From the NCBI GenBank assembly GCA_001781205.1, contig MFLE01000009.1, positions 1 through 48,533 on the forward strand: a stretch of 48,533 nt of DNA, written 5' to 3'. The notes under the pieces are model-generated. The model ran no database searches, was not told where the DNA came from, and saw only the letters and a list, made by a program, of their open reading frames with translations. The DNA is from Candidatus Kaiserbacteria bacterium RIFCSPHIGHO2_02_FULL_49_34. Its GTDB lineage: Bacteria > Patescibacteriota > Minisyncoccia > Phycocordibacterales > UBA918. Both the position numbers and the translations under genes were made by a program. Positions 11,975-19,902 of this stretch are shown here, one piece after another. The first letter of the stretch is position 1. Each line of letters opens with the position of its first letter.

Positions 11975-11980
11975 TATACT
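11975..11980 (+). promoter_or_regulatory. -10 box of the SipW-type surface locus
   Basis: TATACT preceded by CGG, giving a predicted leader of about 74 nt before the ATG at 12061. This is longer than most leaders here; the leader ends in an A-rich stretch without a Shine-Dalgarno motif. Confidence 0.6.
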
Positions 11981-12060
11981 GGTGCAGGGTCACACGAGAG
12001 CATCACCATATAAAGAATGCCGCAGCGGCCACATTATTTTAATACAAAAACAAAATATAT

Positions 12061-12672
12061 ATGATCAAACAGATCGCACTCCCGATTGCCGTAATAGCAA
12101 TCGCAGCCGGCACCACTCTAGGAGCAACCGGCGCATTCTTCTCAGACACTGAGACATCAGCGGCTAATGTGTTCTCAGCAGGAACGCTTGCACTTACTGT
12201 AAACACGAATGGTTCACTAGGAACATTCGACGCCTTTGTGCCAACAGATATTGCTGATCTTATGCCAGGTAGTACATTTGATGTTAGTCATGAAATTACC
12301 GTAAGTTCAAAAGCGTGGGCAAAGCTAGAGCTCGTGCTTACAGGGGTATCTACACCTGAAAATGCGGCATTTATCGCAGCAATTGATGATTCTGGATTTG
12401 ATCTTATGAATACAACTGATAACGTTGCCGTTTCTGGTACATTTACAAACGTTGGAGGTGTCATTACGTTTAAGCCTACCGCACCACTTGAAGTTGGCAA
12501 AACGTACAGGGTTGTTGGAGATTTCTGTTTTGGAGTATGGGATAGTATGTCTACCATCTGTGACGGTTCAAGTGTGAATGATGATTCGCAAGGAGCTTCA
12601 GTTGATGGAGCATTCACCTACGAAGTTACACAATACGTAAACAACGAAAACGGTGAAGTAAATCCACTCTAA
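12061..12672 (+). CDS. SipW-type secreted protein, TasA/camelysin-like
   Basis: The 203-residue product has the bipartite N-terminus of SipW-dependent secreted proteins: a hydrophobic segment (about 5-24) followed by GAFFSDTETS...NVFSAGTLAL, as in TasA and CalY/camelysin. The rest is beta-rich with no transmembrane helix and two Cys in the C-terminal part, consistent with an extracellular Ig-like subunit. By analogy with TasA it may polymerise into surface fibres after cleavage by the signal peptidase at 13793; that is inference. It is followed after 17 bp by a second protein with the same N-terminal pattern, so the two are likely co-transcribed from the promoter at 11975. Confidence 0.82.
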   Translation: MIKQIALPIAVIAIAAGTTLGATGAFFSDTETSAANVFSAGTLALTVNTNGSLGTFDAFVPTDIADLMPGSTFDVSHEITVSSKAWAKLELVLTGVSTPENAAFIAAIDDSGFDLMNTTDNVAVSGTFTNVGGVITFKPTAPLEVGKTYRVVGDFCFGVWDSMSTICDGSSVNDDSQGASVDGAFTYEVTQYVNNENGEVNPL

Positions 12673-12689
12673 TAATAACTTAACTACAT

Positions 12690-13403
12690 ATGTATTCGAT
12701 AGTACGTAGTATTGCGGTCATCGGATTCACAGGAGCTGTTGCCTATACGGGCGTGACGGGCGCGTTCTTCACTGACAGCGAAAGCTCGGTAGGAAACGTC
12801 TTCACAGCAGGTACGTTTATGGGTATTTCGCTTGATAGTATTGGACACATAACAAACGGTCAGTTCGTCCAATCAGGATGGCTCGCCGGACAGCCATACG
12901 GAAAGTTTTTTGAATTCCCAACAGTTGTTCCGGGAGACAGTGGTGTACGACACCTTAGTCTTCATAATGACAATACTAGCGAGTCTGCGTATATTTGCTT
13001 CAATACGGGCACTATAACCACAAATACACACAGCGCGGGCGCAGAAATCACTGCGCTTGTGTGGAGAGATAATAACTTCAGCGGTACCTGGAACCCGTCT
13101 GAGCCGATGTTAACACAAGCGCCAGTAAGTATTGAAAATCTTACTAAAATTGTGTTTGCTGACAGTACAACAGGTACGCCTCTCGCAGCAGAAGGACGTA
13201 GCGACATAGCTGTTGCATGGTGTGCAGGTACCGTTGTAGCAAATGCTGGCGGTAACCCTTCAATTCTTCCTGGACTACCAGGTTCAACCATCACCTGCGA
13301 CGGTACAAGTATGACCACCCAAGGCGGCTCATACGTTGCCGATATGATTGTGTATGCAGAGCAAGTGACGAATAATGGTTCGTTCACCTGTGCAGGAATG
13401 TAG
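12690..13403 (+). CDS. Second SipW-type secreted protein, TasA-like
   Basis: The 237-residue product starts with a membrane segment (about 4-22) and GAFFTDSESSVGNVFTAGTF, the same post-signal motif as its upstream neighbour. The mature part is Thr/Ser/Gly-rich, contains VPGDSGVRHLSLHNDNTSESAY (a stretch typical of camelysin/TasA folds, where a donor strand is followed by conserved polar residues), and has several Cys that could form disulfides. No further membrane helix is seen. It probably forms a surface assembly with the 12061 protein. Repeat copy B follows, which separates it from the signal peptidase gene by 389 bp. Confidence 0.8.
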   Translation: MYSIVRSIAVIGFTGAVAYTGVTGAFFTDSESSVGNVFTAGTFMGISLDSIGHITNGQFVQSGWLAGQPYGKFFEFPTVVPGDSGVRHLSLHNDNTSESAYICFNTGTITTNTHSAGAEITALVWRDNNFSGTWNPSEPMLTQAPVSIENLTKIVFADSTTGTPLAAEGRSDIAVAWCAGTVVANAGGNPSILPGLPGSTITCDGTSMTTQGGSYVADMIVYAEQVTNNGSFTCAGM

Positions 13404-13427
13404 TTTCTGCAACCAAACCCAATGAAT

Positions 13428-13711
13428 TGTCATCCTCGTGATTTAGAAAACAAACGACCTTTGGGAGTATTGTTTTCAAATACACGGGGACCCATGGCTT
13501 TACTGGTATCCTTTTAATCCATGGGTCCCCGGATACTTTGAAAGTATAGTCGCTATCGCTTCTTACTTTCATGATGCTCCGCTTCTTTCTTCTCTCGTTC
13601 TCAAATGAAAATCTCCGCTTACGCTTCGACTTCCACTTGCTCACTCGCTTGAAAGATAAGTTCCGAGGATGACAAACCTTGGTATGGACTGCCAAGACCT
13701 TGAGGATGACA
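13428..13711. repeat. Cloverleaf-like repeat, family 1 copy B, with nested family 2 element
   Basis: Starts TGTCATCCTCG, holds hairpins GAAAACAA...TTGTTTTC, CGGGGACCCATGG...CCATGGGTCCCCG and GAAAGTA...TACTTTC, and ends CCGAGGATGACA at 13674. A second right end (GAGGATGACA) follows at 13702-13711. A family 2 element lies between the third hairpin and the right end. With its flanks it fills most of the 389-bp gap at 13404-13792, in which I see no gene. Confidence 0.85.
13576..13658 (-). repeat. Dispersed repeat, family 2 copy 2 (nested in copy B)
   Basis: On the minus strand it runs from ATCTTTCAAGCGAGTGAGC to GAAAGAAGCGGAGC, matching copies at 9031, 39084 and 43705. It interrupts the right half of the family 1 element. 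Confidence 0.7.
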
Positions 13712-13792
13712 GATATTGGTATATCTACAAAACTTCACATTACTCTCAATAGTATTAAGAGTAATGATGAGGCAATGTGTCTCTAAAATTTT

Positions 13793-14311
13793 ATGATGAA
13801 AACTATTCACACCCTAATTATCTCAGCGCTTGCGACGGTCGGCGTGCTGTTTGTGTTGTCGTCACTTTCGGTCGGTGGCTTTACGGCGAAGCTCGTCCTC
13901 TCCGGCTCAATGGAACCAACAATCCCCACCGGCTCTGTTGCATTTCTTCTCCCACAAAAGAACTATGAAGCTGGCGATGTTATTACCTTCAAAACAGACA
14001 CTGCCGCACAGCATCCGACAACTCACCGTATCATGTTCCAAAACGACGATAGTACATTCACCACTCGTGGAGATGCCAACGACGCTAACGACTTCGTCAT
14101 GGTGAGTCCTGAGCATATCTTCGGCAAAGTTCTCTTCGCCATTCCATACCTCGGCTATATTCTCGATTTTGCAAAAAAGCCACTCGGGTTTGTACTCCTT
14201 GTAGGTATTCCCGTCACCTACATAATTCTCGATGAACTGAGCAAAATAATCGCCATCATTCGCCGCCATCGTGCCGAAAAGAAAGTACACGAACCAAAAG
14301 AAACTGTATGA
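13793..14311 (+). CDS. SipW-like (ER-type) signal peptidase I
   Basis: This membrane serine peptidase removes signal peptides. The 172-residue product has an N-terminal membrane helix (about 8-28), the nucleophile box LVLSGSMEPTIPTGS with Ser39, and HPTTHRI with His78 where canonical bacterial enzymes carry the general-base Lys. The Ser/His arrangement is the ER/archaeal and SipW type. GDANDANDFVMVSPEHIFGKV is the conserved substrate-binding and Asp-containing segment. A second membrane region (about 123-155) and a basic tail end the protein. Its gene is surrounded by three genes encoding SipW-type substrates and overlaps the next one by ATGA, so it is the dedicated processing enzyme of this locus. 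The start could be either of two adjacent ATGs. Confidence 0.9.
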   Translation: MMKTIHTLIISALATVGVLFVLSSLSVGGFTAKLVLSGSMEPTIPTGSVAFLLPQKNYEAGDVITFKTDTAAQHPTTHRIMFQNDDSTFTTRGDANDANDFVMVSPEHIFGKVLFAIPYLGYILDFAKKPLGFVLLVGIPVTYIILDELSKIIAIIRRHRAEKKVHEPKETV

Positions 14312-15525
14312 TGAAAAAACTCCTACTCACCATAATCCTACTCACCGTGCCACTCACGACGCACGCGTATTTTTCTGACACACAAACAAGTGTCGCAACC
14401 ATGAGCGCAGGACGCATTGCGTTTACGATGTCGGCAACCACAACAGACATCATTCTAGGTGCAGCATCGTTCACCTTTGCAATTAATGACGAAAGCACTC
14501 AATCCCCGCAGTACACGTTCTCGGTTGTGAGTTCAACATGCGGTACAGCAGCATTCCAATTTGATGTAACGTCATTCAGCGGAGAGCACACCGTGACAGC
14601 ATCAGAAGTAACAAGCCCCTGCGAACTCACTATCCTCGCCGAAGCGTGGCAACAAAACTTCACCTATAACCAAGGCGGGTTTACTTCATCTTCAGTGCTG
14701 ACGTTTACATTTACTAATTCAATCGAGCCGCAGCCAACTGCAACGATAATTTTGAACGAGATATTTCCACATCCAACATCAAACGCATCCTCCCCTTTAA
14801 CTATTGAATGGATAGAGCTTTATAATAGTACAAGTGAGGAGATTGACGCTGCGGGTTGGTCAATAGCAGAGGAGAGTGGCACGAATATTAACCATCATGA
14901 AATAGTGTCGATATGTCCAACAAGTAAGGTTTCGAAATACATGTCGCCGGTTATTGGCACGGATACCACAATCAACGCAGGCGATGTAAAAGCATTTAAG
15001 TTCTGCGGATCGGCTTCGTATCTCAATCAGGGCAATAGCGGTGAAACTGTGTATTTGCATGTGAATAGCACGTCAGCATCTGTTAGTAGCTATACCTACA
15101 CTACAAGTACTGAAGGCACCTCATTCGCTTGGAATGGTTCTCAATGGATTGTAAATGCAGTACCCACACCAAATACAGAAAACTTTCCTGTAACATCTAG
15201 CGTGGCACAAATCGTAACTACTCTTTCATTCGGTGATTCAGAACTCACCATACTTATAAGTAATGAAGAGAATGAAGTAAAAAAGGAGGAGGCTCCTGAC
15301 GTTGAGTCAGGAAAGGAAGAAGAATTGGTTACTGAGCCTAATACAGTAGAAGAAGAGGCTGTCGGCGTAGTGATTGAAGACAAAGTTGAAGACCAGGTTG
15401 AGGACATCGTTCTGGAGGAATCGGAGGAAGATGTTCTTGAAACTGAGCCAGTACCAGAGCCTGAGCCAGAAGAGCCTGAGCCCGCATCAGAAGTATCAAC
15501 AGACATTAATCCAGAAGAACTATGA
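14308..15525 (+). CDS. SipW-type secreted protein with lamin-tail domain
   Basis: The 405-residue product begins with a signal segment and AYFSDTQTS...SAGRIAF, a third version of the motif shared with the 12061 and 12690 proteins. After an N-terminal beta domain comes a lamin-tail (LTD) domain at about 148-295: IILNEIFPHP, IEWIELYNSTSEEIDAAGWSI, and a late NAVPTPNTEN. LTD domains occur in bacterial surface proteins and nucleases and are thought to mediate protein or DNA binding. The last 80 residues are almost entirely Glu/Val/Pro-rich and probably extended, perhaps spanning the envelope. No sorting signal is seen. It overlaps both its neighbours by 4 bp (ATGA), so translation is probably coupled. 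Confidence 0.8.
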   Translation: MMKKLLLTIILLTVPLTTHAYFSDTQTSVATMSAGRIAFTMSATTTDIILGAASFTFAINDESTQSPQYTFSVVSSTCGTAAFQFDVTSFSGEHTVTASEVTSPCELTILAEAWQQNFTYNQGGFTSSSVLTFTFTNSIEPQPTATIILNEIFPHPTSNASSPLTIEWIELYNSTSEEIDAAGWSIAEESGTNINHHEIVSICPTSKVSKYMSPVIGTDTTINAGDVKAFKFCGSASYLNQGNSGETVYLHVNSTSASVSSYTYTTSTEGTSFAWNGSQWIVNAVPTPNTENFPVTSSVAQIVTTLSFGDSELTILISNEENEVKKEEAPDVESGKEEELVTEPNTVEEEAVGVVIEDKVEDQVEDIVLEESEEDVLETEPVPEPEPEEPEPASEVSTDINPEEL

Positions 15526-16499
15526 GACTCTTAAAATTATATCTACTGGTTGCACTTTTTGCACTTCCTCTTGTGGCTTCAGCGGCGGGACTTTCGGTTG
15601 TGTTTCAAGCGACACCACTCTTTGGTGAGGCACAGTTTATGCCTGGAGCACTGGTGTCACGTACGGTGGAGGTGAAAAATACTGATGCCGTTGCGCATGC
15701 GCTGTATACACGTGCAACGTCAACGCTCTCAGGCGGGCTCGAAGAGGCGATTGATTTCACTATCACATCGGATACGTCACACTTTAACGGAACGCTCGCG
15801 GAATACTACGGATCAGCCTCAGTATTTCTCGGAACCCTTGCGCCAAACGAAACAAAAGTTTACACCTTCGGCGCAACATTCCGCAGTAGCGCTGCAGATA
15901 GCTACCAAGGCAAAACAACAAAGTTTGATATCGAAGTCGGCTTTGAAGGTGGGGAAGTTGTGACTGATACGGGTGGCGGCACTACGGGCAGTACGGGCGG
16001 CACGACAAGTGGAGGCAGTGGTGGAACCTTCGGTGTTGGTGGCAGTGGTACGGGTGTAGAGCCTCGCGTCCTTGGCGACAGTATCGTTGCAGATTTTGTC
16101 AATGACTTCGCGGACAATATTGCCACAGTCTACAATGCAGGTGCCAAAGCCGTCGCACGAGTTCTCGGCGATGAAGACATTGCAGAAACAGAGGGAGCTG
16201 CAACCGAAGCGCTCCAAGAAAGTAACGAGCCCACAAAAACCGTCACACAAGCACTCGTCGACACACACTGCCAGCTCTGGTGGCTTCTCGGATTCGTACT
16301 TATGCTTGCAGGACGTATTCTTATTGAATATGTGCGAGCACAAAAAGAGTCATATAAGCTCATCCGTAGCAGTACTATCGTATTCGCCGCATTTATAGCT
16401 ACTGCCTTTGCTACCGTAATTCTCCTTGGCTTCCCTTGCTCATTTGTTACGGCACTGACTGTTGGAGGTATCTATGTACTCTTGATGAGTGTAGAATAA
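15522..16499 (+). CDS. Secreted/membrane surface protein of the SipW locus, hypothetical
   Basis: The 325-residue product has a classical signal peptide (LLVALFALPLVASAAG) and an N-terminal beta domain with VSRTVEVKNTDAVAHALYTRAT and LAPNETKVYTFGATF, resembling a COG1470/NPCBM-associated Ig-like domain. A Gly/Thr/Ser-rich linker follows (about 145-180), then a helical segment and two or three C-terminal membrane helices (about 250-322). The topology suggests an outward-facing domain tethered to the membrane, a plausible anchor for the fibre subunits of this locus. It overlaps the LTD gene by ATGA and ends before a strong terminator, so it is the last gene of the operon. Function is inferred only from context. 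Confidence 0.72.
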   Translation: MRLLKLYLLVALFALPLVASAAGLSVVFQATPLFGEAQFMPGALVSRTVEVKNTDAVAHALYTRATSTLSGGLEEAIDFTITSDTSHFNGTLAEYYGSASVFLGTLAPNETKVYTFGATFRSSAADSYQGKTTKFDIEVGFEGGEVVTDTGGGTTGSTGGTTSGGSGGTFGVGGSGTGVEPRVLGDSIVADFVNDFADNIATVYNAGAKAVARVLGDEDIAETEGAATEALQESNEPTKTVTQALVDTHCQLWWLLGFVLMLAGRILIEYVRAQKESYKLIRSSTIVFAAFIATAFATVILLGFPCSFVTALTVGGIYVLLMSVE

Positions 16500-16521
16500 A
16501 AGAGTACGCTTCACGTAAGCT

Positions 16522-16555
16522 CACAAAAACTTCGCTCACGAGCGAAGTTTTTGTG
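16522..16555 (+). terminator. Terminator of the SipW-type locus
   Basis: Perfect stem ACAAAAACTTCGCT / AGCGAAGTTTTTGT with a CACG loop, 22 bp after the stop codon. Confidence 0.9.
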
Positions 16556-18349: not shown

Positions 18350-19765
18350 TTAGTCGAATGCTTCAGGATCAAAACGTTTGGTGGTTTCGAGGAGGTGGTC
18401 TTGGGCTTGTGCGGCCGGGATGAGATTTCGATTTGGATAAACGGCTTGGAGGGTATTGCGGAGACGGTTGTCGTTCAAGGTTTGAATGTTGAGGTTATTT
18501 TGGGTGATTGCTAGATGTGCAGCGTCGCTGATTTGGATGCCATTGCTTGCATCAAGGTCGTCATCGAGCGATTGCAGGAAGCGGGCGATGCGGGTGACCC
18601 GCGCGTCAGTAACGTTTGCTCGAGCAACGCCCACGAGGTCCTGCGGGAAAATGAATTCGTTCGTAGTGGCGCCATTGCGGGAAATAGAGCCGAGCACTGC
18701 GCTGCCGATACTAAAGGTGACGGTGTCGTCGGGGAGTCTGGTAAAGGTTCCATTGTCGCGAGTGATACCGTTTACATTCTTTTGTGAGGTATAGCGCACG
18801 CCTTTGACACGACTGTCAACAAGGGTGCCGACATTGGCCGAAGCGATGGCGTCGACATAGATAAGTCCTGTACAGGTACCACCGACGCCTGTTTCAGGAA
18901 TTTTTATGGTGAAGAAGAGTGATGAAGTAGCGATAGTTTCCGTGCTCACTCTTCGGGCAAGATAGAGGTCGGTTGAGGTTGCGCTGGTTTCAAGGGAAAA
19001 TGAGGCAGCATTATCCCATTCAACACGACTGAGTGACCAGTGTTGGTTCACTGCAGGGATGGAGCCCATGACAGAACAGGAGAGATCTGTACCACGAACG
19101 GCAATAGTTGCGGCAGTGTTGCCTCCCTGTGCGACAATCATTTCGGAGGCGTTCGCAGCGGTTGTGGTAGCACCGATTGCAAGCGCACCATAGCTAATCG
19201 TACCGGGGACGGTGAATGCGAGGAGTGAATTAATTTCAACCGTTGTTGTGGCGGTGGCAGTAAGCGCAGAAAGGTCAGTCGTTTGGATATGCCCAGTCCA
19301 GATTGTATCCTCATAGGCGCTGCCTACGTCGGTAGCGTCGGCCCATGAAGCGAGTTCAATAGGGCACGTGTAGCGAGCTTCGGATGCGGAGCCATATGAT
19401 GTGTCGATGGTACAGCTCGTGCGATAACAGTTCTTTAGAAATGCACTGCATGACGAAGTTGCTGCGAGGTCAGTACGATAGAAGACGGCAGTTGTGGTTG
19501 CAATGTTCTGGGCACCATTAGGGTCGAGGAGCACGCCCGTCATATGGAAGGTGGTCGTACCGACAGATGGCGTGATGCCGCCTGCAAATTCTGGATTACC
19601 GTAGGCAACTGAGGAGAGTCCGAGGCTTGTAACCTGTGGCGGTGCATTGTCGATAACCACTGTCACCGTTGACGATTGTTCTTCCGCATGCACGAAAGCA
19701 GCTCCGGCAATAAATATGCCGAGCAAGAATGTTGCTATGCTACGATGTATGAATGCAGTCACCAT
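18350..19765 (-). CDS. Secreted beta-rich protein, paralogue of the 27042 protein
   Basis: The 471-residue product has a signal peptide (about 1-27, ending AAFVHAEEQ). The central region is paralogous to the 27042 protein. Both share the opening PPxVxSLGLSSxAYGxxxxxxGITPSVGT pattern, a VNSLLAF / VNSLLAL strand, IAVRGTDLSCSVMGS / VQVSGGNMACTALGS, and a GVGGTCTG / GVKGTCTG segment. The C-terminal part differs: it has DLVGVARAN...RIARFLQSLDDDLDASNGIQIS, the leucine-rich RxLQxLDxDxxxxNGI motif found in various bacterial exported lipoproteins. The frame is open further upstream, but the ATG at 19765 starts the signal peptide and has a TATACT box 13 nt before it. Function unknown; likely a cell-surface adhesin or enzyme accessory. 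Confidence 0.75.
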   Translation of the reverse strand: MVTAFIHRSIATFLLGIFIAGAAFVHAEEQSSTVTVVIDNAPPQVTSLGLSSVAYGNPEFAGGITPSVGTTTFHMTGVLLDPNGAQNIATTTAVFYRTDLAATSSCSAFLKNCYRTSCTIDTSYGSASEARYTCPIELASWADATDVGSAYEDTIWTGHIQTTDLSALTATATTTVEINSLLAFTVPGTISYGALAIGATTTAANASEMIVAQGGNTAATIAVRGTDLSCSVMGSIPAVNQHWSLSRVEWDNAASFSLETSATSTDLYLARRVSTETIATSSLFFTIKIPETGVGGTCTGLIYVDAIASANVGTLVDSRVKGVRYTSQKNVNGITRDNGTFTRLPDDTVTFSIGSAVLGSISRNGATTNEFIFPQDLVGVARANVTDARVTRIARFLQSLDDDLDASNGIQISDAAHLAITQNNLNIQTLNDNRLRNTLQAVYPNRNLIPAAQAQDHLLETTKRFDPEAFD

Positions 19766-19778
19766 GCGTAATGCGGTA

Positions 19779-19784
19779 AGTATA
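19779..19784 (-). promoter_or_regulatory. -10 box of the 18350-19765 gene
   Basis: TATACT on the minus strand, 13 nt before the ATG, giving a predicted leader of about 7 nt. Supports the start at 19765. Confidence 0.55.
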
Positions 19785-19902
19785 CCATGTGACTCAGAAA
19801 ACGTGAGTGACGCTATCTTTTGAACGAGAGAAGGAAGGAACGACTTGTGGTGAGCTTGTTGAACCAAGCGTCATCCCCGAGAAGGGTTTTGCAGGGTTGT
19901 GA

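Follow-up and report, generated by a model that had tools for sequence, protein, structure and literature searches.

The locus described here raises the question of whether a member of the Patescibacteria encodes a surface fibre of the TasA kind together with the means to make it. It lies in a window of 48,533 nucleotides (the whole stretch analysed, positions 1 to 48,533 of contig MFLE01000009.1, assembly GCA_001781205.1) from Candidatus Kaiserbacteria bacterium RIFCSPHIGHO2_02_FULL_49_34, whose genome of 828 kb is 98% complete. Five open reading frames (ORFs) on the forward strand between 12061 and 16499 form the cassette (Table 1), and their proteins are named below by first position or presumed role. 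A first, sequence-only reading had proposed a self-contained SipW-type locus with three substrates, one of them carrying a lamin-tail domain (LTD), and a membrane-tethered protein; all five ORFs lie at the positions it had given. The locus with its own substrates, the syntenic LTD substrate and the anchor all stood, and the anchor was in addition recognised as TasA-like. A TasA fold for the 12061 protein is backed by its sequence family but hardly by its structural model, which is of low confidence. The cassette seems to belong to a known class of biofilm fibres in a version that is apparently undescribed. By analogy, it is probably a version of the TasA/SipW kind of fibre locus that is widespread in the phylum, and we regard it as reasonably likely that a TasA-class (donor-strand) surface fibre and the means to make it are encoded here.

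The signal peptidase and its presumed substrates

The 13793 protein scored well above the cut-off of TIGR02228 (2.6e-29, 102 bits, cut-off 51.85) and also matched the Bacillus-specific SipW equivalog NF046067, there below the cut-off of 190 (6.6e-29, 100.8 bits). Ser39, His78, Asp94 and Asp100 are invariant in 84/84 Patescibacterial SipW sequences. The protein thus combines the Ser-His catalytic pair (His for Lys), the conserved Asp and the family score of a SipW-type peptidase.

A motif of the form A-[FY]-F-[ST]-D after the signal had been noticed in three proteins, and it is present as AFFSD (12061), AFFTD (12690) and AYFSD (14308). In a six-frame search of the genome with the TIGR04088-type signal model (cut-off 19), the 14308 protein reached 21.0 bits, the 12061 protein 20.0 bits and the 12690 protein 14.0 bits, the last below the cut-off, and in the protein scan the 12061 and 14308 proteins stayed just below it with 16.2 bits each. 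Besides these three, the whole-genome search returned one weak match in a frame of 38 amino acids (aa); all substrates that can be recognised are thus encoded alongside the enzyme. With the TIGR02228 match and no other credible signal in the genome, the view of a SipW-type locus encoding its own substrates was borne out.

The two proteins encoded before sipW are linked to camelysins by sequence family. Residues 3–75 of the 12061 protein alone match PF12389 (4.2e-6, 27.2 bits, cut-off 22.5), and the family hidden Markov model (HMM) of this subunit aligns over positions 2–200 with a Sutcliffiella camelysin (PF12389, 1.8e-20). The 12690 protein had no Pfam match by itself in the library search; iteration groups it in a single family with subunit 1 and with TasA-like proteins from related loci. 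Alignments of this family show the subunits to be conserved most strongly at their SipW-type N-terminus.

The third substrate, the LTD protein, matches PF00932 over residues 141–265 (1.8e-10, 41.6 bits, cut-off 34.3). The acidic tail of 80 residues that had been described for it came out at about 87 residues, and its last 80 residues contain 41% D/E and 4% K/R. Its gene overlaps with both neighbours by ATGA, with sipW at 14308–14311 and with the anchor gene at 15522–15525, so that both overlaps proposed for the genes from 13793 to 16499 are present. No TapA/YqxM family match was found for this protein in Pfam and NCBIfam, and it can therefore be called TapA-like in position only.

Table 1. Features of the cassette and the repeat within it (positions in the window).
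Feature	Position	Strand	Basis
TasA/camelysin-like secreted subunit 1, putative fibre subunit, 203 aa	12061..12672	+	SipW-type signal, predicted cleavage before A25-FFSD; PF12389
TasA-like secreted subunit 2, 237 aa	12690..13403	+	Signal ending AFFTD; iterated family shared with subunit 1
Dispersed repeat, MITE-like, arms TTGTCATCCTC/GAGGATGACAA, outside the cassette proper	13424..13661		46 genome-wide matches; inverted repeats; fold z -6.3
SipW-type (archaeal/ER-type) signal peptidase	13793..14311	+	TIGR02228, NF046067, invariant catalytic residues
LTD subunit with SipW-type signal (AYFSD), beta-domain at the N-terminus, lamin-tail domain and acidic tail	14308..15525	+	PF00932, TIGR04088-like signal, profile-profile comparison
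Lamin-tail domain, residues 141-265 of third substrate	14728..15102	+	PF00932; also six-frame search
Acidic C-terminal tail, probably disordered, ~87 residues	15262..15522	+	D/E content
Membrane-anchored TasA-like protein, 325 aa	15522..16499	+	Sec signal of the ordinary kind that lacks the FSD motif; beta-domain; G/S linker, disordered; hydrophobic helices at the C-terminus
TasA-like beta-domain of anchor, residues 24-143	15591..15950	+	AF2 model, fold search, profile-profile comparison
Predicted C-terminal transmembrane helices of anchor, residues 248-324	16263..16493	+	Model secondary structure; hydrophobicity scan of homologues

Gene order and divergence in the phylum

SipW was searched for in 197 genomes of the order and 380 genomes sampled across the phylum, and neighbourhoods of sipW were annotated with family HMMs. 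A SipW above the cut-off is encoded in 25/197 and 90/380 genomes, respectively, and PF12389 occurs in 25 genomes of the order that are nearly the same set. Of the 25 genomes of the order with SipW, at least 17 encode an LTD on the strand of sipW, 0.5–1.4 kb farther downstream. LTDs as such are common, being present in 147/197 genomes of the order with about two per genome, and from this number we estimate that well under one such arrangement would arise by chance. The order that recurs is one to three TasA-like genes, sipW, the LTD gene and the anchor gene. Among 21 scored loci of the order, TasA-like genes were found in 19, the LTD in 14 and the anchor in 12, and the corresponding numbers for 58 scored loci of the phylum were 48, 27 and 33. 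The conserved synteny of sipW homologues with LTD proteins on which the sequence-only reading had staked its interpretation is thus found in the order and in 27/58 loci of the phylum. The three signals and the synteny throughout the phylum are more than chance.

Outside the Patescibacteria, no LTD was found near SipW in 44 scorable loci of Bacillota, Actinomycetota, Chloroflexi and archaea, a non-exhaustive sample selected for resemblance to the SipW of this locus. A whole-genome search of 50 non-Patescibacterial genomes detected LTDs somewhere in 18/50, and none adjoined a SipW locus as far as the contigs could be matched. Apart from this comparison, two loci (L121 and L123) contain SipW-like genes with no TasA-family match nearby; several neighbours in L121 start with a similar MKK...FAAFE stretch and are possibly a diverged set of substrates.

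The LTD protein itself varies between loci. In this order LTD proteins commonly carry the acidic tail, which is absent from short LTD proteins of other classes; in a Berkelbacteria locus (L036), for example, every member of the cassette is present, and the LTD protein is only 186 residues long and lacks an acidic tail. As such short tail-less proteins recur in other classes, signal and LTD are the general core and the acidic tail is a feature of this group. Two loci (L034, L111) encode signal, domain and tail without an LTD, and in two others (L033, L117) SipW is fused to an internal SipW-type signal, after which the tail comes. Five of the 27 phylum loci with an LTD (L186, L187, L192, L197 and L202) encode it in a single SipW::LTD fusion ORF with an internal substrate signal. 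In these fusions the peptidase is joined to its own presumed substrate, and self-cleavage would be needed for release. Fusion to the enzyme would imply equal and probably low synthesis of both, which fits a minor rather than a bulk fibre subunit.

It might also be argued that the LTD protein is an independent secreted protein, such as a hydrolase partner or a DNA or glycan binder, that shares only processing by SipW with its neighbours. In these bacteria the LTD is widespread as an extracellular domain (147/197 genomes), often in other proteins, and the LTD part diverges fast. An example is a second LTD protein of 461 aa encoded in the same genome (L203:2047-3432, G000 contig C17), which like the 14308 protein has an extracellular LTD. 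It differs in having an ordinary Sec signal, a PKD-like stretch in the middle, a C-terminal transmembrane helix and no link to SipW; many genomes of the order have LTD-bearing ORFs with a length near 500 aa. The conserved position right after sipW, the overlap of stop and start codons and the SipW::LTD fusions all speak against independence, and profile-profile comparison relates the N-terminal domain of the 14308 protein to the TasA-like domain of the anchor. We therefore think an independent LTD protein rather doubtful, and a chance neighbour of sipW was ruled out by the synteny and the fusions.

Comparison with a Candidatus Kaiserbacteria relative revealed unequal rates of change along the locus. 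Identity is 93% for an NrdA-like upstream protein, about 84–85% for SipW, 72% for subunit 2, 66% for the anchor, 46% for the LTD protein and 45% for subunit 1. In subunit 1, identity is 97% over residues 1–30, which comprise the signal and the beginning of the mature strand, and only 17–40% in the body past residue 60; the LTD region reaches about 27–37%. A conserved N-terminus together with fast-changing exposed parts is the pattern that would be expected of a surface fibre, although relaxed constraint may also have caused the fast divergence of the subunit 1 body and the LTD region.

The membrane anchor and a candidate fibre

The 15522 protein had no match in the Pfam and NCBIfam libraries and was modelled with AlphaFold2 (AF2) from an alignment of 13 sequences. 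The model contains a beta-domain at residues 24–143 (predicted local distance difference test, pLDDT, about 88), a disordered linker and C-terminal helices. Its top fold match in the PDB is the TasA fibre (8aur, E 1.3e-5), and further matches include chaperone-usher pilins, cannulae and an archaeal filament; the template modelling scores (TM-scores) are low because linker and helices were included. In profile-profile comparison, the anchor matched homologues from SipW loci of Gram-positive bacteria (Bacillota, Actinomycetota) that have LPXTG-type tails (99.2%, 1.4e-19) and camelysin-type proteins (89%, 2.2e-6). A comparison of the anchor profile with PDB sequences was discarded, as only linkers of antibody fragments matched, via the G/S-rich linker. 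The description of a membrane-tethered protein could thus be kept, with a predicted membrane anchor, and be extended, since the fold match to 8aur and the profile links identify the 15522 protein, as modelled, as a membrane-anchored TasA-like domain. No LPXTG-type motif is present at its C-terminus, and two sortases are encoded elsewhere in the genome.

From these parts, the following mechanism can be proposed. Both TasA-like subunits and the LTD protein would be exported by Sec, as their signals indicate, and the local SipW would cut directly before A-[FY]-F-[ST]-D, as suggested by enzyme family, motif and the exclusive pairing of the two. By analogy to TasA, in which residues 28–38 act as donor strand and complete the neighbouring subunit (PMC9674648), the freed and strongly conserved N-terminal strand would fill the groove of the next beta-sandwich and a chain of subunits would result. 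The 15522 protein, which has no SipW-type donor strand, could offer a groove and fix the fibre base to the membrane; here the fold is supported by the model. The LTD protein would be a donor-bearing subunit of low abundance in the position of TapA or CapP, as nucleator or distal cap, with LTD and acidic tail exposed as the likely ligand-binding part. The fibre might then serve surface adhesion to a host cell, a matrix or sister cells.

Several observations weigh against a fibre of this kind. The AF2 model of the 12061 protein is a beta-sandwich of low confidence (pLDDT 66), and a fold search with it gave generic beta-sandwiches and no TasA among the top 50 PDB matches; these matches were not counted as support for TasA. 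In a PDB search with the profile of the subunit family, TasA came up with an E-value no better than 2.1. The TasA relationship of the major subunits is thus based on sequence families and context. The TasA/camelysin fold that had been expected for subunit 1 is backed by its family links and hardly by its model. The LTD or the anchor is missing from some SipW loci, and several incomplete loci end at contig edges. Placement of the LTD protein at the tip or the base follows from analogy and may be either, and a cell-proximal role as for CapP may apply. Finally, the stoichiometry that operon position might indicate is uncertain because a repeat separates subunit 2 from sipW.

The same observations bear on the view that the TasA-like proteins are secreted or wall-associated matrix or coat proteins, or camelysin peptidases, which form no fibre and belong to a class merely processed by SipW. 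PF12389 is named metallo-endopeptidase in Pfam, and the generic beta-sandwich of subunit 1 would fit. The fold of the anchor, however, resembles the TasA fibre best and donor-strand pilins next, and the conservation of the subunits peaks at their SipW-type N-terminus. A non-fibre function is thus considered unlikely.

The repeat lies in the 389-bp intergenic stretch (13404–13792) that parts both TasA-like genes from sipW and qualifies any reading of the five genes as a single transcript. With 46 matches in the 828-kb genome, it looks like a family of miniature inverted-repeat transposable elements (MITE). The strong hairpin before sipW was considered as a dedicated attenuator that splits the major subunits from the enzyme and was rejected, as it is part of this repeat. 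Similar TGTCATCC arms are found in the Kaiserbacteria relative before sipW and between the LTD and anchor genes. A scan for promoters and terminators gave no clear excess over shuffled sequences. Farther downstream, past a sulfate permease gene, the reverse strand encodes a secreted protein of 505 aa with no convincing family match (18350–19867); in the relative, the cassette is directly followed by an ORF of comparable length that runs in the opposite direction.

Known systems and the biology of Patescibacteria

The closest comparison is tapA-sipW-tasA of B. subtilis, with which the cassette shares a dedicated SipW, camelysin-type secreted subunits, a conserved N-terminal strand and a minor SipW substrate that adjoins sipW with overlapping stop and start codons. 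In B. subtilis, TapA is coupled to SipW in this way (PMC10151520) and may supply the first strand of the TasA fibre (PMC9674648, PMC10151520). In contrast, the minor substrate here has a lamin-tail domain and an acidic tail instead of the domain of TapA, a TasA-like membrane anchor is encoded, and two TasA-like subunits precede sipW. The sipW locus of B. cereus (TasA, CalY, CapP) likewise has two camelysin-type subunits and a helper, CapP, whose C-terminal region is disordered and charged and retains it at the wall (PMC13082335). CapP has DUF4047 and QKKV/AEE repeats and no LTD, and the passages on this locus describe no TasA-like transmembrane anchor (PMC13082335).

TasA-like proteins of Bacillota and Actinomycetota that are anchored by sortase (L039:6356, L041:10934 and L051:9410) share the homologous beta-domain near SipW and TasA-like substrates. 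They end in LPXTG-type motifs, whereas the 15522 protein ends in predicted transmembrane helices. Within the Patescibacteria, a SipW::anchor fusion ORF (L144:7048-8376) ends in LPETG and keeps the sortase-type form of the anchor. We know of no LTD partner for archaeal bundling pili (AbpA). These are described as TasA-like donor-strand fibres outside the Bacillota, and they are likened here on the basis of that description (PMC9674648).

If the fibre is real, it might serve biofilm formation or cohesion between cells and not host attachment, and we give this only slightly less than an even chance. TasA and CalY scaffold the matrix in Bacillus (PMC9674648, PMC13082335), and for cultured Saccharibacteria, a role of type IV pili in episymbiosis has been reported (PMC12206443). 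Attachment to a host cell via the putative fibre would be plausible. In a full-text literature search, no paper dealt with TasA, SipW or camelysin from Patescibacteria; most subscription papers lay outside the search, and absence is not proof.

To our knowledge, how Patescibacteria hold their hosts is largely unknown, and published work points to type IV pili. These are also the attachment structures reported for cultured members of the phylum (PMC12206443). A widespread TasA-class attachment fibre other than type IV pili, with a fast-evolving lamin-tail adhesin as host-recognising tip and a TasA-like membrane base in place of the Gram-positive sortase anchor, is a tentative and rather improbable extension of these results. 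The cassette names the genes to test, namely subunits, enzyme, anchor and putative tip, and gives the lamin-tail domain a specific setting outside the cell. It also suggests that the anchor of TasA-type fibres may have switched between a sortase motif and membrane helices.

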